DNA of 48,411 nt, taken from positions 1 to 48,411 of IMG/VR virus record IMGVR_UViG_3300044639_004276; one strand, given 5' to 3'. Source of the stretch: a virus. The position numbers and the translations under genes were made by a program. Below the pieces are notes generated by a model. The model was given only the letters and a program-made list of their open reading frames with translations. It searched no databases and was not told the origin of the DNA. Shown here piece by piece: positions 2,374 to 48,411 of this stretch (position 1 is the first letter of the stretch; every line of letters starts with the position of its first letter).

Positions 2374-3723
2374 TTACAAATCAAAACAAATAGATCTACC
2401 GCCTCTAGCCTCAGACATGAATCGACTAAACAAAAGACCTTCATATACTGGATCGACATCAGTGATTCCAAGGCAATAACAAACCAAAGATCCACAAGCA
2501 CTTCCTCTTCCGGGTCCTACAGCTTGAGTTCCATCACCACCGATATTTTCTCTACACCATTTTCTTGCTTCGTCAGTCATCATCTTTTGAATAAGAAAAT
2601 ATGTACTAAAACCTTTGCGAGTTATAAGGCTCAACTCTTCAATTATTCTATTTTTATATTCTGTAGTCATTGGCAAATTACGATGTTTAAATCCTCTCAA
2701 GACTTCATCCTTAAGCCTTTGGTCACAATCTGGAAATATAGGTAGTTTCAGACTTCTATCTAATTCGACACCTTTTGCTTTACGACAAATCTCTACTGTA
2801 TTCTTTTTAGCTTCGCAAAAAATTTCATAAGGAATAATATCTTTATAATCACTCAGCCACTTTTCATTAAGTTCTTCCTCAGATTTCATCCATAGATTAG
2901 CATCCTGCAATTCGAAGAAATCCTGCATTGAATCTTCTTTCATTGCCCTTTGAATTTCTTTTAATGTTCTGTTGGTCTGAACCATCAACATAAGTCTTTG
3001 CAAGTGACTATCTTCTTTACGGCAATAATGACAATCTTGCGTAAGAATAATCTTCAATCCAAATTTTTGCTTTGCTTTAACAATAAAAGCGTCATAAGGT
3101 TTTTGTTTAACAAAATCTAAAAGCATAATTTCAAGCAGATAATTTTCTTTACCAAACATCTGAATGTATCGTTCTATCATTTGAAATCCAGCTTCTTCTC
3201 CGCCAGCATCAAATGCTCTGCCAACTTCGCTGTTATAGCAACAACTTGTAAAAAATAAGCCTTCTTTATGCTTCTCAAGTTGTTCGTAATTTACTCTTGG
3301 CTTTCTATAAAATCCTTTCGTCCAACCCCAAGATGTCAAACGAACAAGATTTTTATATCCAGTTTCATTATATGCTATGGCTAATAAGTGTGGACTTGCT
3401 CTCAGTTCCAATAATTCACTTGGAGAGAGAGATTCAGAAAATTTTTGCATGTCCGACAAAGAAGAGGATTGTGGTTGCAATCTATTTACATAAAGTTCCG
3501 CAGCGAATATGGGAGAAAGTTTATTTTTCCCATATTTATCACATATCTTTTCGCATGCTTTGATTTGTCTGGGAACTGCTCCCAACATGCCATGATCACT
3601 AATTGTAAGAAAATTTTGATTTATTTCTGTAGCACGAACCGAATATTCTTCGCATGTTCCAAGCCCATCGAGGACGGAAAAGTCGGAGTAACTAATGAAG
3701 GTGGAGATGTTCAAAACCAACAA
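2374..3723 (-). CDS. DNA polymerase III alpha subunit, N-terminal fragment (PHP domain and start of the palm), interrupted
   Basis: The long frame matches the DnaE/PolC N-terminal half: PHP elements (SDFSVLDGLGT, TISDHGMLGAVP, ILTQDCHYC) and the conserved GPGRGSACGSLVCYCLGITDVDP / LLFSRFMSEARGG block. It stops at SICFDL, exactly where the catalytic PDIDxDF motif should be, and the remaining palm, fingers and DNA-binding parts are absent here. The real 5' end is out of frame. An ATG at 3734-3736 with an AAAGGAG ribosome site encodes MKVEIVGFEHLHLH, the metal-binding PHP motif, then hits TAG; the rest continues one frame over. The TTG at 3723 is therefore not a natural start. The gene is either a decayed or split polymerase, or it needs frameshifting. 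The window also has a complete family A polymerase. Confidence 0.75.
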   Translation of the reverse strand: MLVLNISTFISYSDFSVLDGLGTCEEYSVRATEINQNFLTISDHGMLGAVPRQIKACEKICDKYGKNKLSPIFAAELYVNRLQPQSSSLSDMQKFSESLSPSELLELRASPHLLAIAYNETGYKNLVRLTSWGWTKGFYRKPRVNYEQLEKHKEGLFFTSCCYNSEVGRAFDAGGEEAGFQMIERYIQMFGKENYLLEIMLLDFVKQKPYDAFIVKAKQKFGLKIILTQDCHYCRKEDSHLQRLMLMVQTNRTLKEIQRAMKEDSMQDFFELQDANLWMKSEEELNEKWLSDYKDIIPYEIFCEAKKNTVEICRKAKGVELDRSLKLPIFPDCDQRLKDEVLRGFKHRNLPMTTEYKNRIIEELSLITRKGFSTYFLIQKMMTDEARKWCRENIGGDGTQAVGPGRGSACGSLVCYCLGITDVDPVYEGLLFSRFMSEARGGRSICFDL

Positions 3724-3763: not shown

Positions 3764-4552
3764 TCAATCTCTTTGTTTAGTTTGAAGCCAAATTAAAAAT
3801 TCTTGCTTATCGTACTTTGCATTTTTACGACAATTCTCAGAAGCTGAAATTGGTCGTAAATTTTCCAAACAATTGATCAAAGACAAATCCCAAATCTTAT
3901 GATCTGAAAACGCCTTGATTGGGAAAATATGGTCAATATGCCACTTTCCATTTTTTACCTTTTCATAATTCTCATGATTGATTATATGATTTTGCAATTC
4001 TTTATAATCATAGCCAAGTAAAGCTGAAGTTTTAGACTTTTTTACTCTGCCAGTAACCGCCAAACTCATACTCAATAATTTATACGATCTCTGTCGAAAT
4101 ATCAAGTCCATTTTAAATTTCTCTCGATCATCAACCCATTCATAATGATTTTCTCCAGATCGTTTGGCAATTCCGCAATCCCAACATCTTTTACCTGTTC
4201 TGAAATTATTCCAAGAGATCTTTGCTTCTTTGCCACAAGAACAAATATATCGCATATTCTTGGAAGACTTTTCGTATTGATCCAAAAGCGTACAACCAAC
4301 GGCTGCGAATTCAGATTTTATTTTTTCATGAGAATAAGAGAATCGTTCGCTTATTTTGCGAGAACCGCAATTTTTACATCTATTGCCAGATTTGAAACTA
4401 TAAAAAACAATTTTAGATTCGTTTCCACAAGAACAACGATACCTCATTGGTGTGCGAGCATTGATATAAGTATCTTCTAATAATTTGCAACCATTTTTTA
4501 AGAAGAAACTTTGAACGAATTGATAGGTAAGTCTTTGACTTGAATATTTCAT
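3764..4552 (-). CDS. HNH homing endonuclease with duplicated zinc-binding repeats
   Basis: A 262-residue free-standing endonuclease. Residues about 21-64 and 86-128 are two copies of a module with the pattern GCxLLxxY...MRYxCSCG...GxxCxxCG, with likely zinc ligands C40/C42/C59/C62 and C104/C106/C123/C126; these probably bind DNA. The C terminus carries an HNH nuclease core: HIDHIFP at 205-211, then an NCLENLRPISASEN-type stretch. I chose the ATG at 4552 because GGAGG lies just upstream; the longer frame from 4585 would place that site inside the gene. The gene sits directly beside the broken Pol III alpha gene, a typical homing-endonuclease location. Its ribosome site is inside a hairpin, listed separately. 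Confidence 0.88.
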   Translation of the reverse strand: MKYSSQRLTYQFVQSFFLKNGCKLLEDTYINARTPMRYRCSCGNESKIVFYSFKSGNRCKNCGSRKISERFSYSHEKIKSEFAAVGCTLLDQYEKSSKNMRYICSCGKEAKISWNNFRTGKRCWDCGIAKRSGENHYEWVDDREKFKMDLIFRQRSYKLLSMSLAVTGRVKKSKTSALLGYDYKELQNHIINHENYEKVKNGKWHIDHIFPIKAFSDHKIWDLSLINCLENLRPISASENCRKNAKYDKQEFLIWLQTKQRD

Positions 4553-4556
4553 AAAA

Positions 4557-4579
4557 CCTCCAATATATTTAGTTGGAGG
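4557..4579 (-). promoter_or_regulatory. RBS-sequestering hairpin before the HNH gene
   Basis: In the minus-strand RNA, CCTCCAA (5' arm, 4573-4579) pairs with TTGGAGG (3' arm, 4557-4563), burying the GGAGG ribosome site four bases before the ATG. The 9-nt loop is CTAAATATA, resembling a T4-type late promoter element. T4 I-TevI is known to be controlled by a similar occluded ribosome site with an internal late promoter; the parallel here is inference. Confidence 0.65.
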
Positions 4580-4625
4580 CTTCACAATTATTTCAATCTT
4601 TTAGACGGTTCTGCAGAATTAAAAG

Positions 4626-4858: not shown

Positions 4859-7800
4859 TTATTTCTTTTCTCGAATTCTTACATTAGCAGGATCATTATC
4901 GAAACATTCGAATACGACATCAGTACCATCATGACCTTTAGTGGAAAGAAAAACATCATTTCCCCAAATGAATCTTAGACCAACCAATACATCTCGAACA
5001 TAAGGCTCATGAAGCGGTCTGCCTTCAAATGTATGCTCAAGCATCAGATAGCCCTTACCACGATAATTAGGCTCTGTTAAACGAATATCTGGCAGTCCTC
5101 CATTTACATGGCGAGCCATCAACAATTTTTTTATCTTATTGTAATCATGACTTTCAAGAATCGTCTCTCCGCTTGGATAACGCTTATGTTCAAAGTATTC
5201 TTGTTCTCGACAGAAATCCTCGGTAAAAAATTCATGTATTAAAGTTAGATCATCGTAATACTTTCTAACTTCAAATATTTTTTCCTTACCAAGCATTGCC
5301 TTGGTATCCCATTTTTCTTTCTTGCTAGAATTTGTGCAATCATCCCATTCATTGCCGAATTGACCTTTATCCCAACGATTGCGAATATCGGACAAAAGAT
5401 TATATCCTAGCTTATAAGGATTGGTGCTATATTTTCCACCAAGAACACCCATCTTGTGTGCAGCGTATTCAATGATTCCAGAATCATGAGTCTTTTGACC
5501 CAAGCCGACATAACCCTGTTCTGCCATGATAACATGGTCAGTCATACTATTATGATTCATAAATCCACAAGCCGAATATCGATGACTTGTTTCTACTGTA
5601 ATGTCATACACTGTATCTTTTCCAATTTTTTCGATAGAAACAATTTCATCTTCAAGTTTTTGATCAATAAACCATTTATGATTGTCAATATACTTCTTTA
5701 ACTTTTGCTGTTTTCTAGATAATCCAAAACCTATTTGCTCATAATACTTTACCGCTTCCTGTCCGGTTATGCGTACATGCCAACAAGAATCTTTTTGTTT
5801 GCGTCTTGTTGATAATATGCAAAAATTCAACAAAACATTTTGTATTTGTCTGGAAAGAACTTCGCTTGCGGTGGAAAGAATGACACCAGCATTCCCCGCA
5901 TAACCATCACAATCAAAATACGATCTTACAAAAGAAGCGATAACACTCTTGGGCGATTTAAGAATAATTTCTGGTATTTGCTTAATCCTAGCACAGACTC
6001 CAGTTTTCATTCCCAAATAAACAAGTAGTTCTTCAAGTTCTTTTGAAGTTACAGAAATTCTATATCGACCATTTTTAGATGTGTCATCCCAACTAGATTT
6101 ACAATCTATACTAAATAATTTCTTTGTAAGACGAATATAATTATCGGCTTGATCTTTATCTCCAGTTGTTAAGCCAAGAGTTCTCTTGCTTTTAGATATA
6201 TGACCATCTCCAATCATATATCCAACAAATGAAGCAAATTCTTCATCCATAAAAAAAGGCAAAGATATACATTTCCTTTTATTTCTCATGCATGTCATAG
6301 ACTGATCATCATATTGCTTGAGCAATTTGTCTAAATTGTCATTTTTTTCTTCACCTTTATAATGATATTTTCTATAAACGACTTGAGACATAGTCACTGA
6401 TGCTTTTTTACAAATTTGCTTCAATTCTATCCTTTTATTGGGCAATTTATAATCGATTTTTTGATATTTTTTCGTCCAAATATTTGAAAATGATATTTTA
6501 ACTTTTTCACCTACATTCATTTTATCAAGACGAACCCAATCATTATTACCCATAATTCTATGATTATTTGAACCCTCAAAAACATATCCTCTTCTAGTTT
6601 CAATCCTATAAACATCACGATTTTCAAAAGTGAACCAATTTGTAACATTTCTAGATTTTTCACCATCATAAACCATAACAGGCAACTTTTTATCGACAAT
6701 TTCACCTAATGTCAAAATGCCCATATTTGTAGATACAAGAGAATCTTTTCGTCCGCAAGCCCATCCTTCGTTTAATACTTTGGTTTGTCTCTGTGGGAAA
6801 AAATAAATTGATTCTTCATAGATCATAGACATGATATCTTGTTGCCAAGGCTTAAGTGGAGCATTATCACGCAAAAATCCAAATATATCTTTAACTGGTT
6901 CTATAAAAAATCCAAGTTCTTCTGCAAGATCCTTATCTTTTACCTTTTCATTTTCTCTTTCTTTGAACTCTTTTGTGTTGATGTAATTATCCATATAAAA
7001 TCGATCACTATCAACTTTAAGTCTTTTTGGAAATCTATAATTTCTTTTATCAATAATATTTCTATCTTTGATAACTTTTTGATGCCAAGCCGATGCTCCA
7101 TCAACCAAAGTATCAATGCGAAGTAAATAATCAAGAAATTCAGTAACCTTTTCCTTGCCCCATCTAGCCATATATTTTTTAATACGGCTACTATGATTTG
7201 CCATGTTGTTCAACATGTTTGTATCAGTAGCAGAAAAGTGAATATTATTTTTAAAGAAATCATTATGACCAGTGGCGTGAGCGATAACAGTCAGATGATC
7301 CAATAATGTGTTGCTATCTAAGCAATAGATGTAACATGGCGATGTGTTATGAGTAATCAATCCATATGCAATAAAATCATGAGCATCATGATCCAATGCA
7401 ATATCAACAGTTTCGATCTCATCTCCATCAACAACATGCTCAACAACAAATAAAGGATTTGAAATAATATCTTTAATTTCATTTGGAACACTTAATCCTT
7501 GATTTTCTGCTCTTTGTACAAATGAAGAAAAAGAATTAATCCCAACTTTTTGTTTCTCGAACATTTTAATTGAATAGCCAAGACTATGGTTGTTATATGT
7601 TGTAATGTTTAGATTTTTTGCCCACATAATCAATTGTTGTTGAATATATGGCAACTCCATACCTCCATTACGACAAAATTTTCTATCAAGTAATTTTTTA
7701 AGTAATTCTTGCTTATAGTTAAGCACAAAACCTATTCTATTGTAAAATTTATTTTCAGCCCAAATTCCCTTAATTTTAACAACATTAATATATTTTTGAT

Positions 7801-8965
7801 CACCTTTTTTACCCTTGCCATTTTTTAATGTTTTTAAATTAGAAAGAATTCCCATTTCTGAAAGCATAATCTGAACATCATCTGCCAATTTTTTATTGTA
7901 GCAACTAAAACCAACATGGTTAACCACATAGCCATCAGTATCGAACAAACCACGAATAAAAGCACATCTATAGGCAGGAGGAGACTTCCAAATAATATCT
8001 GGAATTACTTTTTCTTTAAATGTGTTGCCTTTCTTTAAACCAATCGAATTAACAAAATCAACTGCGTTTTTTGAGCATAATGTTACATTGAAACAATTTG
8101 GCTTTTCGTAAATATCTGCTCCGATTCCAAATACCTTTTCAAACAAAAATACAACATGTTCTGCGTATGACCTATGTTTTTTACCAACAGCAACAGTCAA
8201 CATATTTTCAGCCGACTTTACTCCTACTGATCCATCTCCAACCAAAATTCCAAGAAGTTCTGCCAATTCCATAGTAATCTGATTTGGCGGATAAATTTCT
8301 TTGACACAATGTCTAATGTTTGGTCTTGTTGATTCAATGACTTGTTTTGATGACCAGTCAATACTTGGTGCATCCCAATTATTTTCATAAGAATCAGTTC
8401 CTACAAAAATGTCACCAGAAATAATTTCAGATGTCTTTTTCCAGATCAAACCTTTATCGGAAAGTATACGCCACTTGTGATTTGGCGTACAAACTAATGT
8501 CTGACCACCTTTAAGAAAAATTTTCTTGGTTTGAGAAGAATTTTGTTTTTTTATGGCGACAACATTCCTAGTTTCACTACCAACAATAACTTGATCTCCT
8601 ACCTTCACATCTCCAGCTAGAATTGTACCACGCTTAGTCAAAACCGGAGCGTCAAGTTCACAGCAATTGATAACCATCTCATATATTTTGTGCATTTGAT
8701 TTTCATATCCACGCTGCAATTCTTCATATTGCATGCCAAATGACCAATGTGGATATCGTACTGGAAAACCACCATACGCTGCTACTTCAGAGATTTCATC
8801 GTAGGTAAGAAGTTGCACTACGGTTGGATAAAAGTCCAAACCCCAATCTTTACAAACATTTAAAATTATTTGAGCATATTCTTTTAATTGTTTTGGAAGC
8901 TGAACTCCGGGAATTGTGTTGTCGCCAATAAGAAGCGAAGAACCATGCATGAACTTATTAGACAT
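4859..8965 (-). CDS. spoVR: SpoVR family protein interrupted by two inteins
   Basis: Total 1368 residues. Removing two inteins (residues 101-540 and 737-1139) leaves a 525-residue SpoVR/YcgB-type protein, close to the usual family length. Extein landmarks: DWGLDFYPTVVQLL, YPHWSFGMQYE, KIYEMVIN joined to TSPCYIY, VIAHATGHNDFFKNN, and NEGWA joined to SMTDHVIM. In bacteria SpoVR/YcgB is encoded with PrkA and YeaH and is linked to stationary-phase, nutrient-stress or sporulation programmes; the biochemical activity is unclear. Here the order prkA, yeaH, spoVR is preserved with 6- and 18-bp gaps, so the genes form one operon. Both inteins must be excised for function, since they break highly conserved motifs. 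The AT-rich codon use matches its neighbours. Confidence 0.93.
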   Translation of the reverse strand: MSNKFMHGSSLLIGDNTIPGVQLPKQLKEYAQIILNVCKDWGLDFYPTVVQLLTYDEISEVAAYGGFPVRYPHWSFGMQYEELQRGYENQMHKIYEMVINCCELDAPVLTKRGTILAGDVKVGDQVIVGSETRNVVAIKKQNSSQTKKIFLKGGQTLVCTPNHKWRILSDKGLIWKKTSEIISGDIFVGTDSYENNWDAPSIDWSSKQVIESTRPNIRHCVKEIYPPNQITMELAELLGILVGDGSVGVKSAENMLTVAVGKKHRSYAEHVVFLFEKVFGIGADIYEKPNCFNVTLCSKNAVDFVNSIGLKKGNTFKEKVIPDIIWKSPPAYRCAFIRGLFDTDGYVVNHVGFSCYNKKLADDVQIMLSEMGILSNLKTLKNGKGKKGDQKYINVVKIKGIWAENKFYNRIGFVLNYKQELLKKLLDRKFCRNGGMELPYIQQQLIMWAKNLNITTYNNHSLGYSIKMFEKQKVGINSFSSFVQRAENQGLSVPNEIKDIISNPLFVVEHVVDGDEIETVDIALDHDAHDFIAYGLITHNTSPCYIYCLDSNTLLDHLTVIAHATGHNDFFKNNIHFSATDTNMLNNMANHSSRIKKYMARWGKEKVTEFLDYLLRIDTLVDGASAWHQKVIKDRNIIDKRNYRFPKRLKVDSDRFYMDNYINTKEFKERENEKVKDKDLAEELGFFIEPVKDIFGFLRDNAPLKPWQQDIMSMIYEESIYFFPQRQTKVLNEGWACGRKDSLVSTNMGILTLGEIVDKKLPVMVYDGEKSRNVTNWFTFENRDVYRIETRRGYVFEGSNNHRIMGNNDWVRLDKMNVGEKVKISFSNIWTKKYQKIDYKLPNKRIELKQICKKASVTMSQVVYRKYHYKGEEKNDNLDKLLKQYDDQSMTCMRNKRKCISLPFFMDEEFASFVGYMIGDGHISKSKRTLGLTTGDKDQADNYIRLTKKLFSIDCKSSWDDTSKNGRYRISVTSKELEELLVYLGMKTGVCARIKQIPEIILKSPKSVIASFVRSYFDCDGYAGNAGVILSTASEVLSRQIQNVLLNFCILSTRRKQKDSCWHVRITGQEAVKYYEQIGFGLSRKQQKLKKYIDNHKWFIDQKLEDEIVSIEKIGKDTVYDITVETSHRYSACGFMNHNSMTDHVIMAEQGYVGLGQKTHDSGIIEYAAHKMGVLGGKYSTNPYKLGYNLLSDIRNRWDKGQFGNEWDDCTNSSKKEKWDTKAMLGKEKIFEVRKYYDDLTLIHEFFTEDFCREQEYFEHKRYPSGETILESHDYNKIKKLLMARHVNGGLPDIRLTEPNYRGKGYLMLEHTFEGRPLHEPYVRDVLVGLRFIWGNDVFLSTKGHDGTDVVFECFDNDPANVRIREKK
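5549..6757 (-). mobile_element. Intein 2 in SpoVR (403 aa, LAGLIDADG type)
   Basis: Begins with Cys of CGRKDSLVSTNMG (residue 737) and ends SACGFMNHN (residue 1139), followed by extein Ser. Block B-like SNNHRI lies at 799-804. Endonuclease dodecapeptides are FASFVGYMIGDGHIS (910-924) and FVRSYFDCDGYAG (1012-1024). Excision regenerates NEGWA-S, a conserved SpoVR motif. Sequence and length differ from intein 1, so the two were probably acquired independently rather than by duplication. Confidence 0.9.
7346..8665 (-). mobile_element. Intein 1 in SpoVR (440 aa, LAGLIDADG type)
   Basis: Runs from the first Cys of CCELDAPVLTKRG (residue 101) to the terminal His-Asn (FIAYGLITHN, residue 540); the next extein residue is Thr. 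Splicing blocks are visible: A (CELDAPVLT), B (TPNHKW, about 160-165), the two dodecapeptide endonuclease motifs (LAELLGILVGDGSVG, 234-248, and IRGLFDTDGYV, 337-347), and F/G at the end. The second Cys could be the first intein residue, but starting at the first restores MVIN-TSP. All splicing residues are present, so it is probably active. Confidence 0.9.
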
Positions 8966-8983
8966 CTTATAAATCCTTAAATT

Positions 8984-10180
8984 TTACTTTGATTTTTGAT
9001 TACCCATCAAACTTTTAATTGCATCTAAAATTTGATTATTTCTAATTTCATCATCACGCATATTCGAATCATTAGGATTTCCATTTCCAAAGTTAATTTC
9101 GGTGGTACGAATATTATTTTTATCAAGCTCTCCAGTTTCCAATGCCTTATCGACATGATACTTAACACTATTGGTATAGTTATAAGGCAAAATTTGTGTG
9201 ATCCCGACTAAATTAATATCCTTTTCTGGAAATGATTCTTTTAATGTGTTGATAAATACTTGATTATCATCGCCCCAATTATCTCCATCCGTAAAGTAAA
9301 AAACATAAATGTTCCACTTTTGCGGAGGGTATCTATTCTCAAATTGCTTTTGAATAAATTTCAAAGCAGAAGAACAAGTTGTTCCTCCGCCATATCGGTA
9401 GTTATAAAACTTTTCTTCATCTACTTCCATGGCAAGAGAATCGTGCCACACAAAAAGTCGATCAACTCTTTTATAAAATTGTCTAATCCAAACATCAATC
9501 CACCAAGCCATATCTGATACGATCTCACATTTAGCTTGATCCATCGATCCAGATCCATCACGGGCATAAATGATCAAAGCATTGCTAGAAGGAACTTTAA
9601 CTTCTTTGTATTGCCTATAACGCTTGTCACGCTTAATTGGCTTGATTGTCTTCATAGGCATGCTAAGACCCGGAACTATTTCAAAATTATTAGCAGTTCC
9701 ATCTGCACATTGCCTTTTTAAAGCTTCGATAAAAGTTCTTCTATTATGACGCAAAGATTCGGGACCAACCAAAGATATATTATTATATTTGATTTTTACT
9801 TCATCGAATGTATCATTTACTTTTGGCTTTAAATTTGGCAATTCCAGTTCATCTTGCATGAACTTCAATACAGTTTCCAAATCAAGACTTACGGTGATTC
9901 CTTCACCTTCATCCTGAGTTGCTCCATTGCCTTTTCCTTTTTTGCCCTTATCAATAACATCGCCATCCTTGCCTTTACCTCTGCCGATGCCATTGCCGTT
10001 ATCACCATAAAGAATTTGAGGAATATCAATTTTTGGAATTGTGATAGAAATTTTACCTCGTTTGCCACGAGATTTTACTATCTGTCCAGATTTGATAAAC
10101 TTTTTAAGTGCTTTACGAAGTTTGCCTGAGACAACATCTATAAAGTCTTTATGATCTTCTTCAATTCTGCGTGGACACAT
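8984..10180 (-). CDS. yeaH: YeaH/YhbH family (DUF444) protein with a von Willebrand A-like domain
   Basis: A 398-residue protein. The N terminus is basic (RRIEEDHKDF, then a KSRGKRGK stretch). A Gly/Lys-rich linker spans about 58-95. The C-terminal half has a VWA-like metal site: DGSGSM at 208-213, GGGTTCSSAL at 264-273 and YFTDGDNWGDD at 296-305. In bacteria YeaH is the partner of the PrkA kinase and SpoVR; its exact role is not known, though it may be a PrkA substrate or regulator. It lies between spoVR (18-bp gap) and prkA (6-bp gap) in the same order as bacterial operons. Length is close to bacterial members (about 380-430), and no key MIDAS residue appears missing. Confidence 0.92.
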   Translation of the reverse strand: MCPRRIEEDHKDFIDVVSGKLRKALKKFIKSGQIVKSRGKRGKISITIPKIDIPQILYGDNGNGIGRGKGKDGDVIDKGKKGKGNGATQDEGEGITVSLDLETVLKFMQDELELPNLKPKVNDTFDEVKIKYNNISLVGPESLRHNRRTFIEALKRQCADGTANNFEIVPGLSMPMKTIKPIKRDKRYRQYKEVKVPSSNALIIYARDGSGSMDQAKCEIVSDMAWWIDVWIRQFYKRVDRLFVWHDSLAMEVDEEKFYNYRYGGGTTCSSALKFIQKQFENRYPPQKWNIYVFYFTDGDNWGDDNQVFINTLKESFPEKDINLVGITQILPYNYTNSVKYHVDKALETGELDKNNIRTTEINFGNGNPNDSNMRDDEIRNNQILDAIKSLMGNQKSK

Positions 10181-10186
10181 GTTCTA

Positions 10187-12259
10187 TTATTCCTCGGCTA
10201 GATCGCCTCTTGCAAATATAGATCCAACAAAATCTAGAACATCAGTTGCAGATCTTTCGTTATAACCATACTGTTTGATAAGGCGAGTTTTAATCGCATC
10301 TATTTTTTCTTGAATATCCTTATCAACCACAGTTGCTCCGCTAACATTGAGTGCGGACAACTTAATGGTATCTTTTACATCTTCAAAAAGCTTTGCTTCT
10401 AAAGCTTTTCTCAATTTTGGATTAGAATCCCAACTAAATTGCTTGTGCTTGATTGCAAGGTCGCCAATAAAAGCAGCTATCTGCCTACGGAAATCATCAG
10501 CACCCGGTTCTGGTATGTCGATCTTAGATTCAATGGCTCGCATCAATCTTTCATCAGGCTTTCTATCTTGCCCTGTGATTGGATCTTTAATCTTACTTTT
10601 GTTGATATACGCCATGATATTATCAATGTAATTAGCACAAAGGCGAATAATCGCATCTTCATCACCAACAAGAGCCTTCTGAACTTCGGCTTTTAAAATT
10701 TCAGTCAACTTCTTAACTACTAAATCAATACATGTGATGTATCGACCAACATCATCCTTATTGTTCAACAAAGAACTTCCTTCTAAACCTTCACGAAGCT
10801 CATTTAGAACCATGAACATATTTACATAGTCATGATTATTGGCTAGGCAGTTTGAAAGCTTATCTTGAACATAACGAACTGAAACACCACGGGTCATACC
10901 CTCATCAGGATACCTATCCTTTAATTCTTTGACTTGCTCTTCTGTCCATCCAGAAAGAAGTTTGCCGTCATAAAGCTCTGCCTTTTCGACTAAGGAAATT
11001 TTACCATCCTTATCATCATGAAGTCTGGTTAAAACTGCCCATAGAGCAGCAACTTCAAGTGTGTGTGGTGCGATATGTTGTTTGACCCTATCTACACCAT
11101 AATCTTTTTCCAAGATTTTAAGTTCTTCGCCCCATCGAAGAGTATAAGGAACATCGATCTTTACAGTCCTGTCACGCAACGCTTCCATATATTGATTGCT
11201 TCTAAGCCTTTCGTATTCAGGGCTATTGGTATGACAAAATATTGCCTCATCAATAGAGACTTGTGCAAACTTCTTCGGCTTAATACTTTGCTCTTGGCTT
11301 GCTCCCAAGAGATCATATAAAAATGCTTGATCTAACTTCAAAGCTTCTATAAACTCTATAATTCCCCTGTTTCCGACACAAAATTCTCCGTCAAAATTAA
11401 AACTTCTTGGGTCAGAGTCGGAACCAAAGGTGCTGATACGACTAAAATTAATATCACCTGTAAGTTCTGTAGAGTCTTGATTTTTTTCATCTTTCGGTTG
11501 GAATGTGGCGATACCAACACGATCTGCTTCGCTATATGTTTTTCGAATTACTCGAATATGTTTTTCGAGAACTTTTTCGAGATCTCCATCATACCTAATC
11601 AAAAGTTCTTTCATAAAGAACTTGCATCTTGGATCAAGCTCTCCCTCGCACTTCAATGCATATAGTTCATTTCTCTCTTCTGCAGATACAGACTCAGAAA
11701 GAACTCGATTCAAATCATCCATAATAGGTTTACGAATTTCTGGAGGAAGCAACTTAAGTGGCTGCTCATGCATTGGGCATTCGTCTTCTTCTTTGACATA
11801 AATTCCATCTTGTCCAGTCGGAAGATTTATCCATTTGAAAGTATACCAAGCACCAGCATCGGTTGTGGAATAATTTTCCAATTCTCGCTTGAACAATCTA
11901 CAGATTGTAGATTTAGAGCTACCTACAGGTCCGTGCAAAAGAAGAATTCTTTTTTCAGTACCAAAATATCCAGCTGCACCTTTGATGAACTTAACCAAAG
12001 AATCCTTAGTTGGTGTCAGACCAATGATTGGACATTCCTGATTATCAAAAAAATTATAATGTTTGTATGTCTTTCTGTATTCTTCAACGGCATGACAACC
12101 CTTTTCCATAATCATGTCGTAAATCATTTGCCAAGAATTACGAACAAGTCTTGGTTGCTGATAGCACAGATCAATGTATTCGGAAAATGACATTTCTCCG
12201 TTAAGAATTTTAAATTTGCTTTGATTGAATCTGCCTATGAATCTTTTAAGTTCGTCCAT
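10187..12259 (-). CDS. prkA: PrkA family AAA+ serine protein kinase
   Basis: A 690-residue protein matching PrkA throughout. Walker A is GPVGSSKS at 110-117, preceded by the AAA_PrkA-type region starting PIIGLTPTKDSL. Further PrkA-like segments include GRDINFS/ISTFGSDSDPRSFNFDGEFCVGNRG and the sensor region EAIFCHTNSPEYERLR. The C-terminal kinase-homology part contains SVRYVQDKL and the extended alpha-helical end. Bacterial PrkA is an AAA-coupled Ser/Thr kinase or protease-like regulator acting in nutrient stress and sporulation. This is the promoter-proximal gene of the cassette, with ATTGGAGA before ATG. It is slightly longer than the usual ~640 residues. Phage function is unknown; reprogramming of host stress physiology is an inference. 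Confidence 0.93.
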   Translation of the reverse strand: MDELKRFIGRFNQSKFKILNGEMSFSEYIDLCYQQPRLVRNSWQMIYDMIMEKGCHAVEEYRKTYKHYNFFDNQECPIIGLTPTKDSLVKFIKGAAGYFGTEKRILLLHGPVGSSKSTICRLFKRELENYSTTDAGAWYTFKWINLPTGQDGIYVKEEDECPMHEQPLKLLPPEIRKPIMDDLNRVLSESVSAEERNELYALKCEGELDPRCKFFMKELLIRYDGDLEKVLEKHIRVIRKTYSEADRVGIATFQPKDEKNQDSTELTGDINFSRISTFGSDSDPRSFNFDGEFCVGNRGIIEFIEALKLDQAFLYDLLGASQEQSIKPKKFAQVSIDEAIFCHTNSPEYERLRSNQYMEALRDRTVKIDVPYTLRWGEELKILEKDYGVDRVKQHIAPHTLEVAALWAVLTRLHDDKDGKISLVEKAELYDGKLLSGWTEEQVKELKDRYPDEGMTRGVSVRYVQDKLSNCLANNHDYVNMFMVLNELREGLEGSSLLNNKDDVGRYITCIDLVVKKLTEILKAEVQKALVGDEDAIIRLCANYIDNIMAYINKSKIKDPITGQDRKPDERLMRAIESKIDIPEPGADDFRRQIAAFIGDLAIKHKQFSWDSNPKLRKALEAKLFEDVKDTIKLSALNVSGATVVDKDIQEKIDAIKTRLIKQYGYNERSATDVLDFVGSIFARGDLAEE

Positions 12260-17519: not shown

Positions 17520-17891
17520 ATGGCGTGGATATATAAATATATGATGAACGATATAGAAAATTTTAAAAACACCATGGCAACTTGGGATACATATCTTCTT
17601 AAGGAAGATAAGATTCAAAATTTTTTTGATGAAAATGAATTAATTTTCTTTTTTCAAAAAGGTGACAATATCTATGGAGCAAACGAAGATGGCAGATTGA
17701 CATTTGCCACAATGAATGACAAAAAAGAAGATAAAAGAGTTCGAGACGAAATTAGAGTCCTTGCAATAAATATCGTTAAAAGTATCAATGACGAAAAATC
17801 AGAATCAATGTTCAATATGAAAGAAATGAAAAAAATTAAAATTTTAGACAGAGATGAAGCAGAAAAAATTCTGCACAAAAAAATTAAATGA
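17520..17891 (+). CDS. Hypothetical protein (123 aa)
   Basis: Not recognised. The protein is lysine- and glutamate-rich with an aromatic patch (NELIFFFQKGDNIYG) and a helical C terminus. Start choice is uncertain. The first ATG at 17520 lacks a normal ribosome site. ATGATG at 17541-17546 lies right after a TATAAATA octamer that could be a late promoter, which would give a nearly leaderless message. The stop overlaps the next gene by ATGA, indicating coupling with the zinc-finger nuclease downstream. Confidence 0.55.
   Translation: MAWIYKYMMNDIENFKNTMATWDTYLLKEDKIQNFFDENELIFFFQKGDNIYGANEDGRLTFATMNDKKEDKRVRDEIRVLAINIVKSINDEKSESMFNMKEMKKIKILDRDEAEKILHKKIK
17532..17539 (+). promoter_or_regulatory. 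TATAAATA octamer, possible late promoter
   Basis: Exact match to the T4 late promoter octamer, located just before an ATGATG pair in the 17.5-kb gene. The genome is AT-rich, so a single exact octamer is weak evidence on its own. Confidence 0.3.
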
Positions 17892-18559
17892 CATTGCCAT
17901 TTCAAAAAAATAATCATGTTCGCAAATATCAATGTTTCGTATGTGGCAGAGCCTATTACGAATATGACGAGTATAGCAAACACATAAAGGATACTCACGA
18001 ACTTGGTCGTGATTATGTTGTATGCCCACTACAAAGATGTGGTTGTCCAGTCAGAGATCTAAGGCTACATTTTAAATCAAAGCATCCGCATGAAAAAGAT
18101 ATTCCAAAGATAGGACAAATGCGAGCAACAATCTGGAAAGATATTGATAAAAAAAGTGGAAAATTAAAGCAGCAAAAGCCAAAATTTCGTGAAGGTTATT
18201 TCATGTCAGGAAAAAATAGAAAAGAAATGCATTATCGAAGTGGCTACGAAGTAGAAGTATATGAACAATTAGAATATTTGCCAGAAGTTATAAAATACGA
18301 TGTTGAACCATTCAAAGTTGATTATATTTTTGAAGGAGAAAAGCACGAATACAATCCGGATCTTAGTATTTACTTTATGGATGGACATGTAGAAATATGG
18401 GAAATAAAGCCAGCCAATCAAACGCAATTGCCAAAAAATCACGCTAAGTGGGCTGCATGTCAACATCACTGCCAAGCAAGAGGTTGGCAGTTTGTAGTTA
18501 TGACGGAAGTTGGTATAGGAAAACTTAAAAGAAGAGTTGATGAGATAACAAAGTCTTAA
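17888..18559 (+). CDS. Double zinc-finger protein with TnsA/T4 gp4-like nuclease domain
   Basis: A 223-residue protein. Residues 16-37 (CFVCG...H...H) and 46-66 (CPLQRCGC...H...H) are two C2H2-like zinc fingers. After a basic linker, residues about 113-205 resemble the TnsA N-terminal / T4 head-completion (gp4) PD-(D/E)XK fold: YRSGYEVEVYEQLE (E121/E127), YNPDLSIYF (D158) and EIWEIKP (E172, K174), then a helix and WQFVVMTE. That pattern suggests a metal-dependent endonuclease active on DNA ends, possibly in head completion or DNA trimming. The zinc-finger fusion is unusual. ATGA overlap couples it to the preceding gene. Confidence 0.7.
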   Translation: MTLPFQKNNHVRKYQCFVCGRAYYEYDEYSKHIKDTHELGRDYVVCPLQRCGCPVRDLRLHFKSKHPHEKDIPKIGQMRATIWKDIDKKSGKLKQQKPKFREGYFMSGKNRKEMHYRSGYEVEVYEQLEYLPEVIKYDVEPFKVDYIFEGEKHEYNPDLSIYFMDGHVEIWEIKPANQTQLPKNHAKWAACQHHCQARGWQFVVMTEVGIGKLKRRVDEITKS

Positions 18560-24700: not shown

Positions 24701-25696
24701 CTAATCCAAGAACTTATCTTCTATAAATTTATTATTCAATAGTGAAGTTGAACCTTTTTCTAATTGAAAAATATCATAATATTGATGAGATTTAAAATTA
24801 TTACCAAATACCCCATCAATCTCACATGATACATTCTGCTTCATACGCATAAAAAGCCATTCTTTTACCTCTTTCAGACCAGACGATAAGTTAGAATCAT
24901 CATCAAATCCAAGCAATTCCATGACTTTATTGAAATCTAACCAAGCATAACCAGTCATTTGGTTATTTTTTTCATAATTTTTCAATAATGGTAATTTGGA
25001 AGTAATATTTACAAAATGAAGAAGAAATAAAATGTAATTTTTTGCATCAAAATAATTCAAACAAGCAGATGCATCCATTATGCGAAATTCAATAGTCTGT
25101 CTTTTATTGTTTACGAAATGATATGTATTAATCGAATAATATTTATGCATCCCAATTGAATTTATAAGTGTATTAGAACTAATGAGTGGGCGTTCAACTT
25201 CATCGATAATGTCGGAAAAAGACAATAACTGGCAATATCTATTTCTTTTTCTTTTAATTGGAACCATGTTTGTAAACACATATTCGCATTTAATCCACCA
25301 ACTAATTACAGAAGCGACTTGATCAACAGAAAGGTCATGAACATCAACATGAACATGAAACGAACATCTTTCATCTGCTTTTATATTGCCGTCATTGCTA
25401 AAAGCATCGACAACAGCAGATACTTTTCTCACTCCATCAATTCCCTTTAATACTGGTGTGCATACTTCGATCCCACAACTACTATCTGGCTTTAAAATCC
25501 AAGAATCATTATTGTGATTATTTCCCCACTTTTGAATAAACACCTTATCTTTGACAACTTTTTGAACCAGCCAAGAAACATAAAAAATTCCTTTTGGCAA
25601 ATTTCCCAATTCATAATCAAATGGACGACTTCTGCCATCGAAGGCATTAATTTCCAACTCAACTCCAAAACGCCTTTTATTATTACAATTATTCAT
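24701..25696 (-). CDS. Amidoligase family protein
   Basis: A 331-residue protein matching the Amidoligase_2 (ATP-grasp-like COOH-NH2 ligase) pattern: FGVELEI at 10-16, WILKPDSSCGIEVCTPVL at 66-83, CSFHVHVDVHDL at 111-122, then QTIEFRIMDAS. These motifs supply metal and ATP contacts. Such enzymes are predicted to form amide bonds, modifying peptides or cell-wall-like or virion components, and occur in phages and toxin-like clusters. Start: ATG at 25696 with GAGG; a GTG two codons earlier is out of register with the site. Neighbouring small genes may supply the substrate. Confidence 0.8.
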   Translation of the reverse strand: MNNCNNKRRFGVELEINAFDGRSRPFDYELGNLPKGIFYVSWLVQKVVKDKVFIQKWGNNHNNDSWILKPDSSCGIEVCTPVLKGIDGVRKVSAVVDAFSNDGNIKADERCSFHVHVDVHDLSVDQVASVISWWIKCEYVFTNMVPIKRKRNRYCQLLSFSDIIDEVERPLISSNTLINSIGMHKYYSINTYHFVNNKRQTIEFRIMDASACLNYFDAKNYILFLLHFVNITSKLPLLKNYEKNNQMTGYAWLDFNKVMELLGFDDDSNLSSGLKEVKEWLFMRMKQNVSCEIDGVFGNNFKSHQYYDIFQLEKGSTSLLNNKFIEDKFLD

Positions 25697-25763
25697 GGTC
25701 ACCTCATTGCCAAGTCAACGACATCTCTTTTATAATACAGTAATATTAAATCAAGGAGTTTCT

Positions 25764-40263: not shown

Positions 40264-40536
40264 ATGAAACGATTTAAAGTTTGGATTGAAGCAAAACAAG
40301 AAAAATTAAAAGATTATTTAGATGTTGTTTTAAATTCTCTTAATTTAGACACAAAAAAAGGAGCATCTACGCCAATAGATTCTTTAAATCAACAAAATCT
40401 AATGGCTAAATTAGAAAATTTGGAAGTTTATAAATTGTTGCCTACAAAAACAAAAGATTTGATTCGTAAAAAAATTGAAAGCGATAATAAAGGCACAGTT
40501 CTTGATATTATAAAAACAATGGCTGGATATCAATAA
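40264..40536 (+). CDS. Small capsid-targeting-signal protein (90 aa)
   Basis: Begins MKRFKVWIEAKQEKLKDYL, with an IEA where cleavage might occur after Glu. The rest is helical and Lys/Asp/Leu-rich, suggesting a small packaged DNA-binding protein. AAAGGA precedes ATG. The 3' end overlaps the convergent peptidase gene. Confidence 0.6.
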   Translation: MKRFKVWIEAKQEKLKDYLDVVLNSLNLDTKKGASTPIDSLNQQNLMAKLENLEVYKLLPTKTKDLIRKKIESDNKGTVLDIIKTMAGYQ

Positions 40537-41276
40537 GATTGTGCAATAATATCAATTAACTTTCTATTAAACAATGTTCTTTTAGCTAAATCATTTTTCA
40601 TGGGTGTCTCAGTTGTCAAATATGGAAAACCCATGTCGTGAATTCCATTTTCAATAGAACATTTGTGTTTAGGCTCTGATTCTATTCTTTGTTTTTTTGG
40701 ATGAGATATCAAACCATTAATGCATTTATCGCCATGTATTTCTCCATCAAGTATGGGAAAATAAGACGATGCTTCTCTTACGCATTTATCCCAAAGAGGT
40801 TTTTTATCTTCGTCTGAGTAGTAAGAATAAAAACCATCTGTAGATTCATCTTCATGTAGTGTCCAGAATAAAGATGGCTTCATTTTCTTCGCCAATTCTA
40901 GAATACTTTTAACTTCTGGTTGTTTTATACGATGACACATATCTCGATTCAAATCGTTCCCCTCATCAGTAAATCTGTTATTGGATATAAATCCAGTTGG
41001 ATTTAGAATAGGAAAAAACTCAAGTGTTATATCTTTGGGAAATTTACCTCTTGATAAGTAATCGATAATTCCAGTGATTCCACCTATTTCATTACCATGA
41101 ATTCCACCGACTATAAAAATTGATTTTGATTTGTCGGGATTAATGGTGGCTCTGTATATTGGAAAATTATTTTCACAAAGAGTTACCAATTTAACTTTTG
41201 GAGTGCATCGAACAAGCCTAGAAACATAGGCATCATAACGATTCGAATCAGATTTAAAAAATTCTTTGAATTGCAT
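40530..41276 (-). CDS. Zinc carboxypeptidase/aspartoacylase-like protein with CTS-like N terminus
   Basis: A 248-residue protein of the M14/AstE-ASPA fold. Zinc ligands are visible: H60-GN-E63 (GGIHGNEIGG) and H141 (WTLHEDES), plus N108-D-L-N-R111 typical of substrate-binding residues. The N terminus MQFKEFFKSDSN fits the capsid-targeting pattern, so the enzyme may be packaged and delivered with DNA, for instance to act on peptidoglycan or amino acid conjugates. Start: ATG at 41276; an upstream start six codons earlier is possible. A TTCATAAATA motif lies just upstream. Confidence 0.78.
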   Translation of the reverse strand: MQFKEFFKSDSNRYDAYVSRLVRCTPKVKLVTLCENNFPIYRATINPDKSKSIFIVGGIHGNEIGGITGIIDYLSRGKFPKDITLEFFPILNPTGFISNNRFTDEGNDLNRDMCHRIKQPEVKSILELAKKMKPSLFWTLHEDESTDGFYSYYSDEDKKPLWDKCVREASSYFPILDGEIHGDKCINGLISHPKKQRIESEPKHKCSIENGIHDMGFPYLTTETPMKNDLAKRTLFNRKLIDIIAQSY

Positions 41277-41312
41277 ATTTTTATTTATGAACATTTACCT
41301 TTATAATTTAGC

Positions 41313-44436: not shown

Positions 44437-46654
<2,218 letters not shown>

Positions 46655-46727
46655 ATTTTTCACCGAACTACATATTTTCACCGATAACAAATTTATTGTT
46701 TTGCTTACAGCCAATACATAGAGATAA

Positions 46728-48411
<1,684 letters not shown>

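Follow-up and report, generated by a model that had tools for sequence, protein, structure and literature searches.

Two predicted homing inteins interrupt SpoVR in the PrkA-YeaH-SpoVR triad of a huge phage

The triad in bacteria and phages

The module PrkA-YeaH-SpoVR (YeaG-YeaH-YcgB) is present in the chromosomes of many bacteria (best 80 of at least 574 loci), and the same order was found in 54 of 54 bacterial loci with all three genes; E. coli K-12 is different in that its ycgB is not adjacent to yeaGH. On phages, the same three families occur in the GenBank records of the Thermus phages phiYS40, phiLo and Lalka8, where, unlike in the locus described here, the gene order is VWA-SpoVR-PrkA and SpoVR is very distant, with long branches for phiYS40 and Lalka8; a Pfam search of the phiLo SpoVR gave no intein. 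A 2021 study also reports spoVR as a virome gene (PMC8940887). The triad in phages, known from the Thermus phages and from many IMG/VR contigs, is not new.

Homing inteins, likewise phage-borne, placed in conserved functional motifs and equipped with homing endonucleases, are described from mycobacteriophages (Kelley et al. 2016, PMC5050341), and traffic between phages and bacteria is proposed there too; according to that paper, the intein-bearing genes are mostly phage-specific, whereas the spoVR considered here is also bacterial and one insertion site (site b) is common to both. DnaB of M. smegmatis is another conserved protein with two different inteins, the P-loop being the site of one, but it is a replicative helicase and one of its inteins is reported to be endonuclease-free and oxidation-responsive (PMC6195587), while both SpoVR inteins described below carry endonuclease motifs.

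The window (the whole stretch of DNA analysed, 48,411 nt) is a 48 kb fragment of a huge phage, from a record classed as virus in IMG/VR. Unlike the bacterial module as compared here, its SpoVR carries inteins. A preliminary description had placed a complete triad in bacterial order at 4859-12259 of a phage-like genome, among replication genes, and this was borne out: the three ORFs lie there on the minus strand in that order and were confirmed by Pfam, and nearby genes include the N-terminal part of DNA polymerase III alpha together with UvsX-like, T4-type SSB-like, DnaB-like helicase and ThyX genes. TerL and a T4-type gp23 capsid gene were each found in 4 of 11 related virus records searched (records of 299–381 kb and 259–343 kb, respectively); among the window proteins scanned, covering part of its ORFs, there was neither a gp23-type capsid nor TerL. 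The features discussed are as follows.

2374..3723, minus strand: DNA polymerase III alpha, N-terminal part only
3764..4585, minus strand: HNH / endonuclease VII-like ORF adjoining SpoVR (phrog_559, phrog_1035)
4859..8965, minus strand: SpoVR precursor ORF, 1368 aa, comprising a 525 aa SpoVR and two inteins
4859..5548, minus strand: SpoVR C-extein, spliced aa 297-525, with stop codon
5549..6757, minus strand: intein SpoVR-b, 403 aa, C1...HN/S, two LAGLIDADG motifs
6758..6772, minus strand: NEGWA, with invariant E293 and A296, immediately before site b
6758..7345, minus strand: SpoVR middle extein, spliced aa 101-296
7265..7279, minus strand: HATGH, H123 and H127 of spliced SpoVR, would-be metal ligands
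7346..8665, minus strand: intein SpoVR-a, 440 aa, C1...HN/T, two LAGLIDADG motifs
8666..8965, minus strand: SpoVR N-extein, aa 1-100, the same residues being continuous in L014 and L016
8672..8768, minus strand: putative converted flank, 7–103 nt before site a, holding all five L015-window differences
8984..10180, minus strand: YeaH / DUF444, 398 aa, VWA-like, MIDAS-like motif (PF04285)
9542..9559, minus strand: YeaH DGSGSM (aa 208), first part of the MIDAS-like motif
10187..12259, minus strand: PrkA, 690 aa, AAA+ and PrkA C-terminal domain, no intein (Pfam PF08298, PF06798)
11909..11932, minus strand: PrkA Walker A GPVGSSKS, aa 110-117

PrkA (Pfam 4.6e-74 for AAA_PrkA and 1.1e-71 for the C-terminal domain) is 67.9% identical to a gene of the huge phage LR756511.1 and has a relative in the PDB (9xip); YeaH matched DUF444 at 1.1e-61. 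The motifs named in the preliminary description were all located, GPVGSSKS in PrkA and DGSGSM and FTDGD (the latter at aa 296) in YeaH, where we take DGSGSM and TDG to be a MIDAS-like motif. All 72 well-covered phage PrkAs retained a Walker A of the GPVGSSKS form, and phage YeaHs had DxSxS in 70/70 and [TS]DG in 67/70. With dN/dS against the window of 0.008–0.12 for PrkA, YeaH and the SpoVR exteins, wherever dS was computable, and with Walker A kept, the triad genes look conserved and free of decay, as had been proposed. The label “PrkA kinase” is doubtful and the literature divided: in vitro work on B. anthracis PrkA reportedly gave no kinase activity and hardly any protease activity (PMC13001217), and E. 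coli YeaG mutants in the AAA+ or the kinase part failed to complement (PMC4664914).

Among relatives of the window SpoVR in IMG/VR, the triad order was the same in 80 of 80 loci with all three genes; each locus set comprised the best 80, out of at least 574 in one case and 498 in the other, and was not a random sample. The triad is thus common in such phages, which is half of one condition that the preliminary description had named as counting against it, the other half being prior characterisation; on the latter, the literature searched yielded no functional work on these phage genes. In the tree, phage SpoVRs of the window's type formed their own group beside those of Planctomycetota, Myxococcota, Bdellovibrionota and other bacteria. 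Enterobacter phage LAU1 was rejected as a carrier of the module, its yeaG-yeaH starting at base 1 beside tail genes and looking like host DNA.

Two inteins in the SpoVR frame

The ORF at 4859..8965 had been described as a plain SpoVR gene with the spacing of a bacterial operon. The family stands (Pfam 4.6e-93, the C-extein matching SpoVR_C, PF24755), but two inteins had been overlooked: they take up 843 of the 1368 codons (440 + 403 aa), which accounts for the length of the ORF, and the frame is open throughout. Operon-like spacing is accordingly possible for the gene starts only and not for the intein-lengthened SpoVR gene itself, and annotating this ORF as plain “SpoVR” misstates both protein size and anatomy. 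In the 525-aa SpoVR the insertion points lie at N100/T101 (site a) and A296/S297 (site b).

The Pfam families Intein_splicing (PF14890, 68.3 bits with a cut-off of 35.8) and LAGLIDADG_3 each matched two stretches of the ORF; where intein b begins, TIGR01445 intein_Nterm (NCBIfam) reached 34.8 bits, its cut-off being 24.5, and several intein-bearing families in NCBIfam also matched. Each insert is in frame, with Cys first and His-Asn last, followed by Thr (a) or Ser (b), junctions that recurred in every phage copy examined for them, and the flanking SpoVR parts are continuous in the intein-free loci L014 and L016. Block B of inteins follows the rule Thr-x-x-His; it reads TPNH in intein a and SNNH in intein b, with Ser replacing Thr. 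The twin LAGLIDADG motifs, with acidic residues present, are LLGILVGDG and GLFDTDG in intein a and VGYMIGDG and SYFDCDG in intein b. As judged from the sequence, SpoVR is interrupted within one 1368-codon frame by two elements with intein junction residues and twin LAGLIDADG motifs, and both would excise themselves to leave an intact 525-aa SpoVR.

Homologues of intein b were present at the same SpoVR residue in Planctomycetota (at least 7 of 171 surveyed) and Myxococcota. Phage and bacterial site-b inteins formed one group with support 98/99 in an intein tree built without near-duplicates, without the short inteins of L083 and L217, and without the inteins of Pol III, of helicase and of PrkA (aa 346). 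These same-residue relatives in huge phages and Planctomycetota indicate that inteins crossed between phage and bacterial lineages. Inteins were also present in PrkA of some bacteria. In the huge phage LR756504, an endonuclease-free mini-intein interrupts the same NEG motif of SpoVR, an assignment based on junction residues, on similarity to site-b inteins in blastp and on one weak match in the PDB, Pfam giving no intein domain in this protein at E 0.001. A candidate SpoVR intein in the huge phage LR756502 was rejected, as SpoVR is uninterrupted there; it lies ~245 kb from PrkA in that record. In the literature searched, with most subscription journals and all supplements outside it, SpoVR was not found linked to inteins, nor was an intein found with “stage V sporulation”; inteins in bacterial PrkA were not found by title among the matches listed.

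The HNH / endonuclease VII-like ORF next to SpoVR, which had no Pfam family at E 0.001, is perhaps a free-standing homing endonuclease. Beyond it, Pol III alpha lies downstream of the triad, likewise in LR756511.1; Rfam gave nothing above curated thresholds within the window, so that the split Pol III is not explained by a known intron family.

Allele states and the spread of the inteins

All four states (no intein, a, b and both) were seen among the IMG/VR relatives, and the intein-free L014 and L016 encode the window's joined exteins with 100% aa identity. Across 85 viral loci, counting repeats of one contig as one and excluding the window itself, site a was occupied in 14 and empty in 70 of 84 determined loci and site b occupied in 12 of 83, counts that are not independent because L018-L021 duplicate the window or nearly so (occupancy of L019-L021 being assigned manually) and that are biased toward occupancy by L184-L186, which were retrieved by an intein query (without these, 11/81 and 9/80). 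On a 40-row phage tree, the presence of intein a needs at least 8 changes and that of intein b at least 4.

L015, which is without intein a, differs from the window at only five positions, all synonymous, over 15,554 aligned nt outside the insertion, and all five fall in the flank listed above. The pattern fits a footprint of homing with co-conversion of the flank; for this near-clonal pair it could also reflect a clean loss of intein a via recombination with an empty allele. In several pairs, comparison shows inteins that are much less diverged than the surrounding genes: between the window and L022, dS was 0.92 for the extein, 0.26 for intein a and 0.04 for intein b (PrkA being saturated), and between the window and L185 nt identity was 69.3% for the extein and 88.4% for intein a. 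Recent spread is not apparent in all pairs, since intein a of L136, L149, L160 and L184 shares 41–44% aa identity with that of the window while the exteins share 56–73%. The +1 Ser codon was AGT in all four b-bearing and TCT or TCA in all four b-free copies compared, near-copies included.

We infer that each intein endonuclease cuts intein-free spoVR alleles during co-infection and that repair copies the intein in. Homing elements generally last longest at vital sites, because imprecise loss would destroy the protein; both SpoVR inteins adjoin invariant residues (H123/H127 and E293). Taken as a whole, we consider it very probable that this huge T4-like phage carries a module acquired long ago from bacteria and conserved, whose spoVR has been invaded by two homing inteins.

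Possible roles of the triad and its inteins

PrkA, as an AAA+ motor, and YeaH, as its VWA/MIDAS partner, might act together on SpoVR, and such a machine would perhaps serve the stress or envelope state of the infected cell. That the phage uses a full working bacterial stress module to control the metabolism or dormancy of its host, with the inteins as passengers without functional weight, is a tentative possibility. It agrees with the complete triad, its fixed order in 80/80 viral loci and purifying selection, as well as with the joint action of E. coli yeaG and yeaH in nitrogen starvation (PMC4664914) and the report that spoVR outnumbered all other sporulation-type genes in a virome from an oxygen-minimum zone (PMC8940887); assembly of the phage or some metal-dependent step could, however, equally be the target of the module. 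This proposal is compatible with homing inteins and makes the host effect the main point.

SpoVR itself is perhaps zincin-like, and H123, H127 and E293 are candidate residues for binding a metal. H123, H127, E293 and A296 were invariant in 80/80 SpoVRs, and the HxxGH pattern occurred in 67/72 phage SpoVRs, the G varying. In VIA-align comparisons of two SpoVR models, which share most alignment rows and so are not independent, named zincins drawn from Foldseek's weak candidates reached Z 9.9 and 9.3 (LTA4 hydrolase), values that by the tool's own note may reflect a common arrangement; the highest-ranking entry, 3o0y (Z 12.2 and 10.4), bears only the title of a putative lipoprotein. Most upper rows are filled by names that we take to be zincins (LTA4H and other M1, M32 carboxypeptidases), and these have in common with SpoVR an HxxxH helix and a later Glu. 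Zincins, however, have the Glu of HExxH where SpoVR has V or A (H-V/A-x-x-H in 80/80), and SpoVR is therefore not classed as a zincin metallopeptidase. Foldseek gave no significant structural match for either model, and the search of PDB sequences gave no relative of SpoVR, solved zincins included; two clathrin light chains (E 0.57, 0.79) were set aside as matching via a charged stretch. The models appear to resemble zincin metallopeptidases weakly. In the partly available literature searched, with most subscription journals and all supplements outside it, SpoVR was not found described as a metalloprotein or zincin.

If SpoVR were such a PrkA/YeaH-driven metal enzyme, it might serve the virus itself in the maturation of capsid, tail or lysis proteins, as the position of the VWA, SpoVR-like and PrkA genes of Lalka8 between portal/minor head protein genes and TerL, that of the phiYS40 genes near TerL and the possible likeness to metallopeptidases would suggest. 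We regard this as unlikely, given that the window module lies near replication genes, that the catalytic Glu is missing in 80/80 SpoVRs and that the same module is found in many bacterial chromosomes.

The inteins could instead be kept as useful, with splicing dependent on conditions such as redox or metal, so that the state of the cell would decide when SpoVR is active. The placement of both inteins next to invariant residues in a stress-related protein, the inteins of some bacterial PrkAs, the persistence of the mini-intein in LR756504 and the oxidation response reported for one of the two M. smegmatis DnaB inteins (PMC6195587) are in keeping with this, but the responsive DnaB intein is the one without an endonuclease, presence in SpoVR is patchy, intein-free copies have identical exteins, and endonuclease motifs with recent spread are what selfish homing predicts, all of which makes it improbable. 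That PrkA-SpoVR is a recurrent intein target in phages and bacteria because splicing acts as a switch (redox, metal, starvation) is very doubtful; were it true, precursor SpoVR, and in some bacteria PrkA, would be dead until excision, and a stress machine would be under post-translational control by parasitic elements exchanged between phages and bacteria. A chimeric assembly, or a broken gene in the course of being lost, can be dismissed almost entirely, for although the window is a single metagenome contig, the same junctions recur across many contigs that are listed separately, those of site b also in genomes of bacteria, intein dN/dS against the window is 0.11–0.38 wherever computable, and the frame is fully open.

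With homing as the preferred explanation, the two inteins are the most informative feature of the triad locus. SpoVR, a stress-related family, is added to the hosts of inteins, none having been found in the literature searched, and a zincin-like SpoVR without the catalytic Glu would offer a lead on the AAA+/VWA/SpoVR set, which is conserved yet unexplained. The natural series of empty, single and double alleles, some of them in near-identical backgrounds, may allow homing among uncultured huge phages to be traced by sequence.

The triad and two inteins within SpoVR

The triad of PrkA, YeaH (DUF444) and SpoVR that a preliminary description had read in the window, a record classed as virus (48,411 bases), was borne out by Pfam for all three ORFs, which follow one another in head-to-tail arrangement on the minus strand. 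The phage replication genes it had placed around the triad were also found, namely the N-terminal part of DNA polymerase III (Pol III) alpha and ORFs for a UvsX-like recombinase, a single-strand DNA binding protein, a DnaB-like helicase and ThyX, together with a dNMP kinase. No tRNA was found in the window with ARAGORN, and no Rfam family there scored above its thresholds. The features are as follows (a slash marks an intein junction):

1-1564 and 44468-48410, plus: Cys-rich STIG1-type repeat protein (PF04885) and collagen-like repeats (PF01391)
2374-3723, minus: Pol III alpha, N-terminal part
4859-8965, minus: SpoVR ORF, 1368 aa (Pfam SpoVR, 4.6e-93)
5549-6757, minus: intein b, 403 aa, junctions NEGWA/CGRKDSLV...GFMNHN/SMTD
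7346-8665, minus: intein a, 440 aa, junctions EMVIN/CCELDAPV...GLITHN/TSPC
8984-10180, minus: YeaH/DUF444, 398 aa (Pfam DUF444, 1.1e-61)
10187-12259, minus: PrkA, 690 aa (Pfam, 4.6e-74 and 1.1e-71)

The SpoVR ORF matched the Pfam families LAGLIDADG_3 (1e-36) and Intein_splicing (8.4e-19), each in two stretches, and in NCBIfam TIGR01445 (intein N-terminal region) and several intein-bearing families, e.g. GyrA_w_intein. The LAGLIDADG motifs read LLGILVGDG and GLFDTDG in intein a, inserted at site a (N100/T101), and VGYMIGDG and SYFDCDG in intein b, at site b (A296/S297). Neither intein is a recent copy of the other, their identity being ~30% over 226 residues. Joining of the exteins, the SpoVR parts around the inteins, yields a SpoVR of 525 aa, and the SpoVR of the 595 kb huge phage LR756511.1, unbroken at both sites, aligns with the joined exteins across 517 residues at 57% identity; its triad has the same PrkA-YeaH-SpoVR order as the window. 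The 1368-aa precursor is predicted from its sequence to splice twice to give SpoVR.

Elsewhere in the window, 24701-25702 (minus) encodes an amidoligase-like protein, 40530-41294 (minus) an AstE/AspA-like hydrolase and 17888-18559 (plus) a TnsA-like endonuclease that may contain a zinc finger. Pol III alpha appears genetically split across much of the phage clade of the window: the match of the N-terminal part to the intact LR756511.1 protein (L002) ends at about residue 433, directly before the PDVDVD motif at residue 437 of L002, and the C-terminal part lies 1-4 kb further on in several relatives, the protein being intact in L148 (loci compared: L002, L024, L135, L140, L141, L144, L148 and L149). 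Both contig ends pass into repeat genes with higher G+C, at which the assembly probably breaks.

Occupancy of the insertion sites in phages and bacteria

An IMG/VR scan with the joined exteins as query gave 20 loci, among which all four allele states were found: no intein (e.g. L014 and L016, whose SpoVR has 100% aa identity to the joined exteins of the window), a only (L012), b only (L015) and both (L018-L023). A profile-based scan of IMG/VR gave 498 stretches encoding SpoVR; the top 80 of them, from 79 distinct loci, were retained. Over 85 distinct viral loci, taken from best matches, 14/84 determined loci had an intein at site a and 12/83 at site b, counts that include copies or near-copies of the window (L018-L021) and three loci fetched by intein query, without which the values are 11/81 and 9/80. 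PrkA was present in 80 of the 85 loci, 73 being covered across residues 60-650 and insertion-free, and all 80 had the order PrkA-YeaH-SpoVR on a single strand, which answers positively the question, raised in the preliminary description, of whether related phages carry the triad. Scans with the inteins as queries, which reach close relatives only, gave an interrupted SpoVR in 12/12 loci for intein b and 11/13 for intein a, the remaining two matches being weak (E 9e-4 and 1e-3). Phages of this clade bear further inteins, one in the N-terminal part of Pol III alpha (L138, 10702-13326, plus; GPGRG/C...HN/S) and one in a helicase-like ORF (L154, 14938-17406, plus; SPTASGK/A...HN/T).

Among the bacterial loci fetched, the best 80 of at least 574, site b was filled in 4 of 78 determined SpoVRs and site a in 0/80. 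The bearers were L083 (Myxococcota), with a short site-b intein of 264 aa, and L088, L089 and L090 (Planctomycetota). In 343 Planctomycetota genomes, SpoVR was present in 171 and split at site b in at least 7 of these; the six copies beyond L088 all had the junctions NEGWA/C...HN/S[YF]WH. Site-b inteins from 5 phages and 8 bacteria formed one group in the intein tree (98/99), indicating that the site-b intein is a single lineage in both; within it, the phage inteins were set apart by a branch with 100/100 support, and the bacterial ones by a weakly supported one (69/81).

Of the 54 bacterial loci where PrkA was matched, 5 had the gene interrupted, by six inteins in total:

L048 2-3889, plus: PrkA with two inteins
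L083 1284-4499, plus: PrkA with intein
L088 375-3662, plus: PrkA with intein
L089 1-2973, plus: PrkA with intein
L092 1434-4655, plus: PrkA with intein

These occupy three positions, near aa 287, near 308 and at a GH/TN motif near 346. The two fully read inteins at 346 begin with Ser, not Cys, and among the PrkA intein ends read, that of L089 is KN in place of HN. The huge phage LR756504 encodes a SpoVR of E. coli type with a 129-aa mini-intein that has no endonuclease (NEG/C...HN/CATF), positioned two residues earlier than site b; no intein was found at this position in LR745206 and LR756502. The mini-intein shows homology to those at site b (E 5e-18 with L089, 2e-16 with the window) and, weakly, to PDB chain NEQ068 (E 9e-4), an archaeal intein.

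Signs of intein mobility

The window was compared with L015, which holds intein b without intein a. Over 15,554 nt aligned outside the insertion, the two showed five differences, every one synonymous, a sixth mismatch in the BLAST table being an edge base of intein a itself. The five are located as follows:

8672-8768 of the window: five differences from L015, 7-103 nt upstream of site a

L026, with site a empty, has the L015 letters at all five positions and two more differences in its 8.3 kb upstream. The window/L015 pattern is the footprint expected of recent homing with co-conversion of the left flank, as judged from the alignment; clean loss of intein a via recombination with an empty allele would also explain the pair and is less likely.

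Recent homing was further examined through divergence values. Between the window and L022, PrkA shared 76.6% nt identity with saturated dS and YeaH had a dS of 2.26, with values of 0.92 for the SpoVR exteins, 0.26 for intein a and 0.04 for intein b. The nt identities with L185 were 69.3% for the exteins, 88.4% for intein a and 72.1% for intein b, and L161 and L184 shared 74.1% in the exteins and 94.9% in intein b. By these measures, the inteins of the three pairs are younger in place than the surrounding genes. Old, separately evolving copies also exist, as indicated by intein a of L136, L149, L160 and L184, more diverged from the window (41-44% aa identity) than the exteins (56-73%), and by L163, where intein a and the exteins show nearly equal identity (52% and 53%). 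When presence was mapped onto a tree of 40 phage SpoVR exteins, a minimum of 8 changes was needed for intein a (9 bearers) and of 4 for intein b (6 bearers). The +1 serine codon at site b was AGT in 4/4 b-bearing and TCT or TCA in 4/4 b-free copies, a comparison of eight copies of which some are near-copies of one another. Where computable, dN/dS against the window was 0.11-0.38 for the inteins and 0.008-0.12 for exteins, PrkA and YeaH; the intein values fit splicing-competent elements, without proving it.

SpoVR and its module

SpoVR residues H123, H127 and E293 were invariant in 80/80 sequences, and position 124, the place of the catalytic Glu in HExxH peptidases, was V or A in 80/80. AlphaFold2 models of the phage SpoVR (mean pLDDT 86.6, pTM 0.81) and a Bacillus-type SpoVR (87.0, 0.85), built from largely the same alignment rows, both place H123 and H127 on one helix and E293 close to the beginning of a subsequent helix; site a would lie in a turn between two strands just ahead of the first helix, and site b is three residues past E293. 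Foldseek alone gave no significant match for either model. The top VIA-align row for both was 3o0y, titled putative lipoprotein and listed without a class (Z 12.2, 188 residues, 3.6 A for the phage model; Z 10.4, 192 residues, 3.7 A for the Bacillus-type), in a tool whose own note states that Z 7 to 8 is frequent without a true relative, and 14 if helical. Named zinc metallopeptidases made up most of the rows beneath: LTA4 hydrolase (Z up to 9.9 for the phage model and 9.3 for the Bacillus-type), followed for each model by M32 carboxypeptidases and ACE/ACE2, and for the Bacillus-type also by M1 aminopeptidases. The modelled likeness to zincins is a lead; because HExxH is absent, SpoVR is not classed as a zincin peptidase, and it may bind metal without HExxH peptidase chemistry.

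From their families, PrkA would be an AAA+ motor and YeaH its VWA partner, acting on or with SpoVR. In B. anthracis, PrkA is reported to be required for sporulation and osmotic stress, whereas in vitro assays showed no kinase activity and negligible proteolysis (PMC13001217). The module may reprogramme the host, as first proposed, or may serve maturation of the phage's own proteins. It need not be an operon, given that in the 642 kb phage record LR756502.1 SpoVR (L221) lies ~245 kb away from PrkA-YeaH (L222). In a tree of 99 SpoVRs, made by a quick method without bootstrap, 38 viral rows including the window type formed one group (SH-aLRT 99) adjoining bacterial SpoVRs, among them those of Planctomycetota, Myxococcota and Bdellovibrionota. 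A further two huge phages clustered with YcgB of E. coli, and the branches of two Thermus phages were very long; these separate places indicate that phages gained spoVR at least twice. Among 11 related records searched, TerL was found in 4 and a T4-type gp23 capsid gene in 4, all these being at least 259 kb.

The triad was already on record in phages: GenBank entries show it in Thermus phage phiYS40 (YS40_056, _057 and _059) and in phage phiLo. Ralstonia jumbo phage RsoM2USA is reported to have SpoVR and PrkA among its genes (PMC8504454), and an ocean virome study included spoVR in its count of viral genes (PMC8940887). Phage inteins in functional motifs (PMC5050341) and two inteins within one protein (PMC6195587) were also known before. 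By term search, the huge-phage survey mentions none of SpoVR, PrkA and intein in its main text (PMC7162821), and the literature searched held no paper on SpoVR as an intein host. What is new here is the presence in SpoVR, a host protein not met in that literature, of putative homing inteins, with clean natural evidence that points to their mobility and an insertion site common to phages and bacteria.
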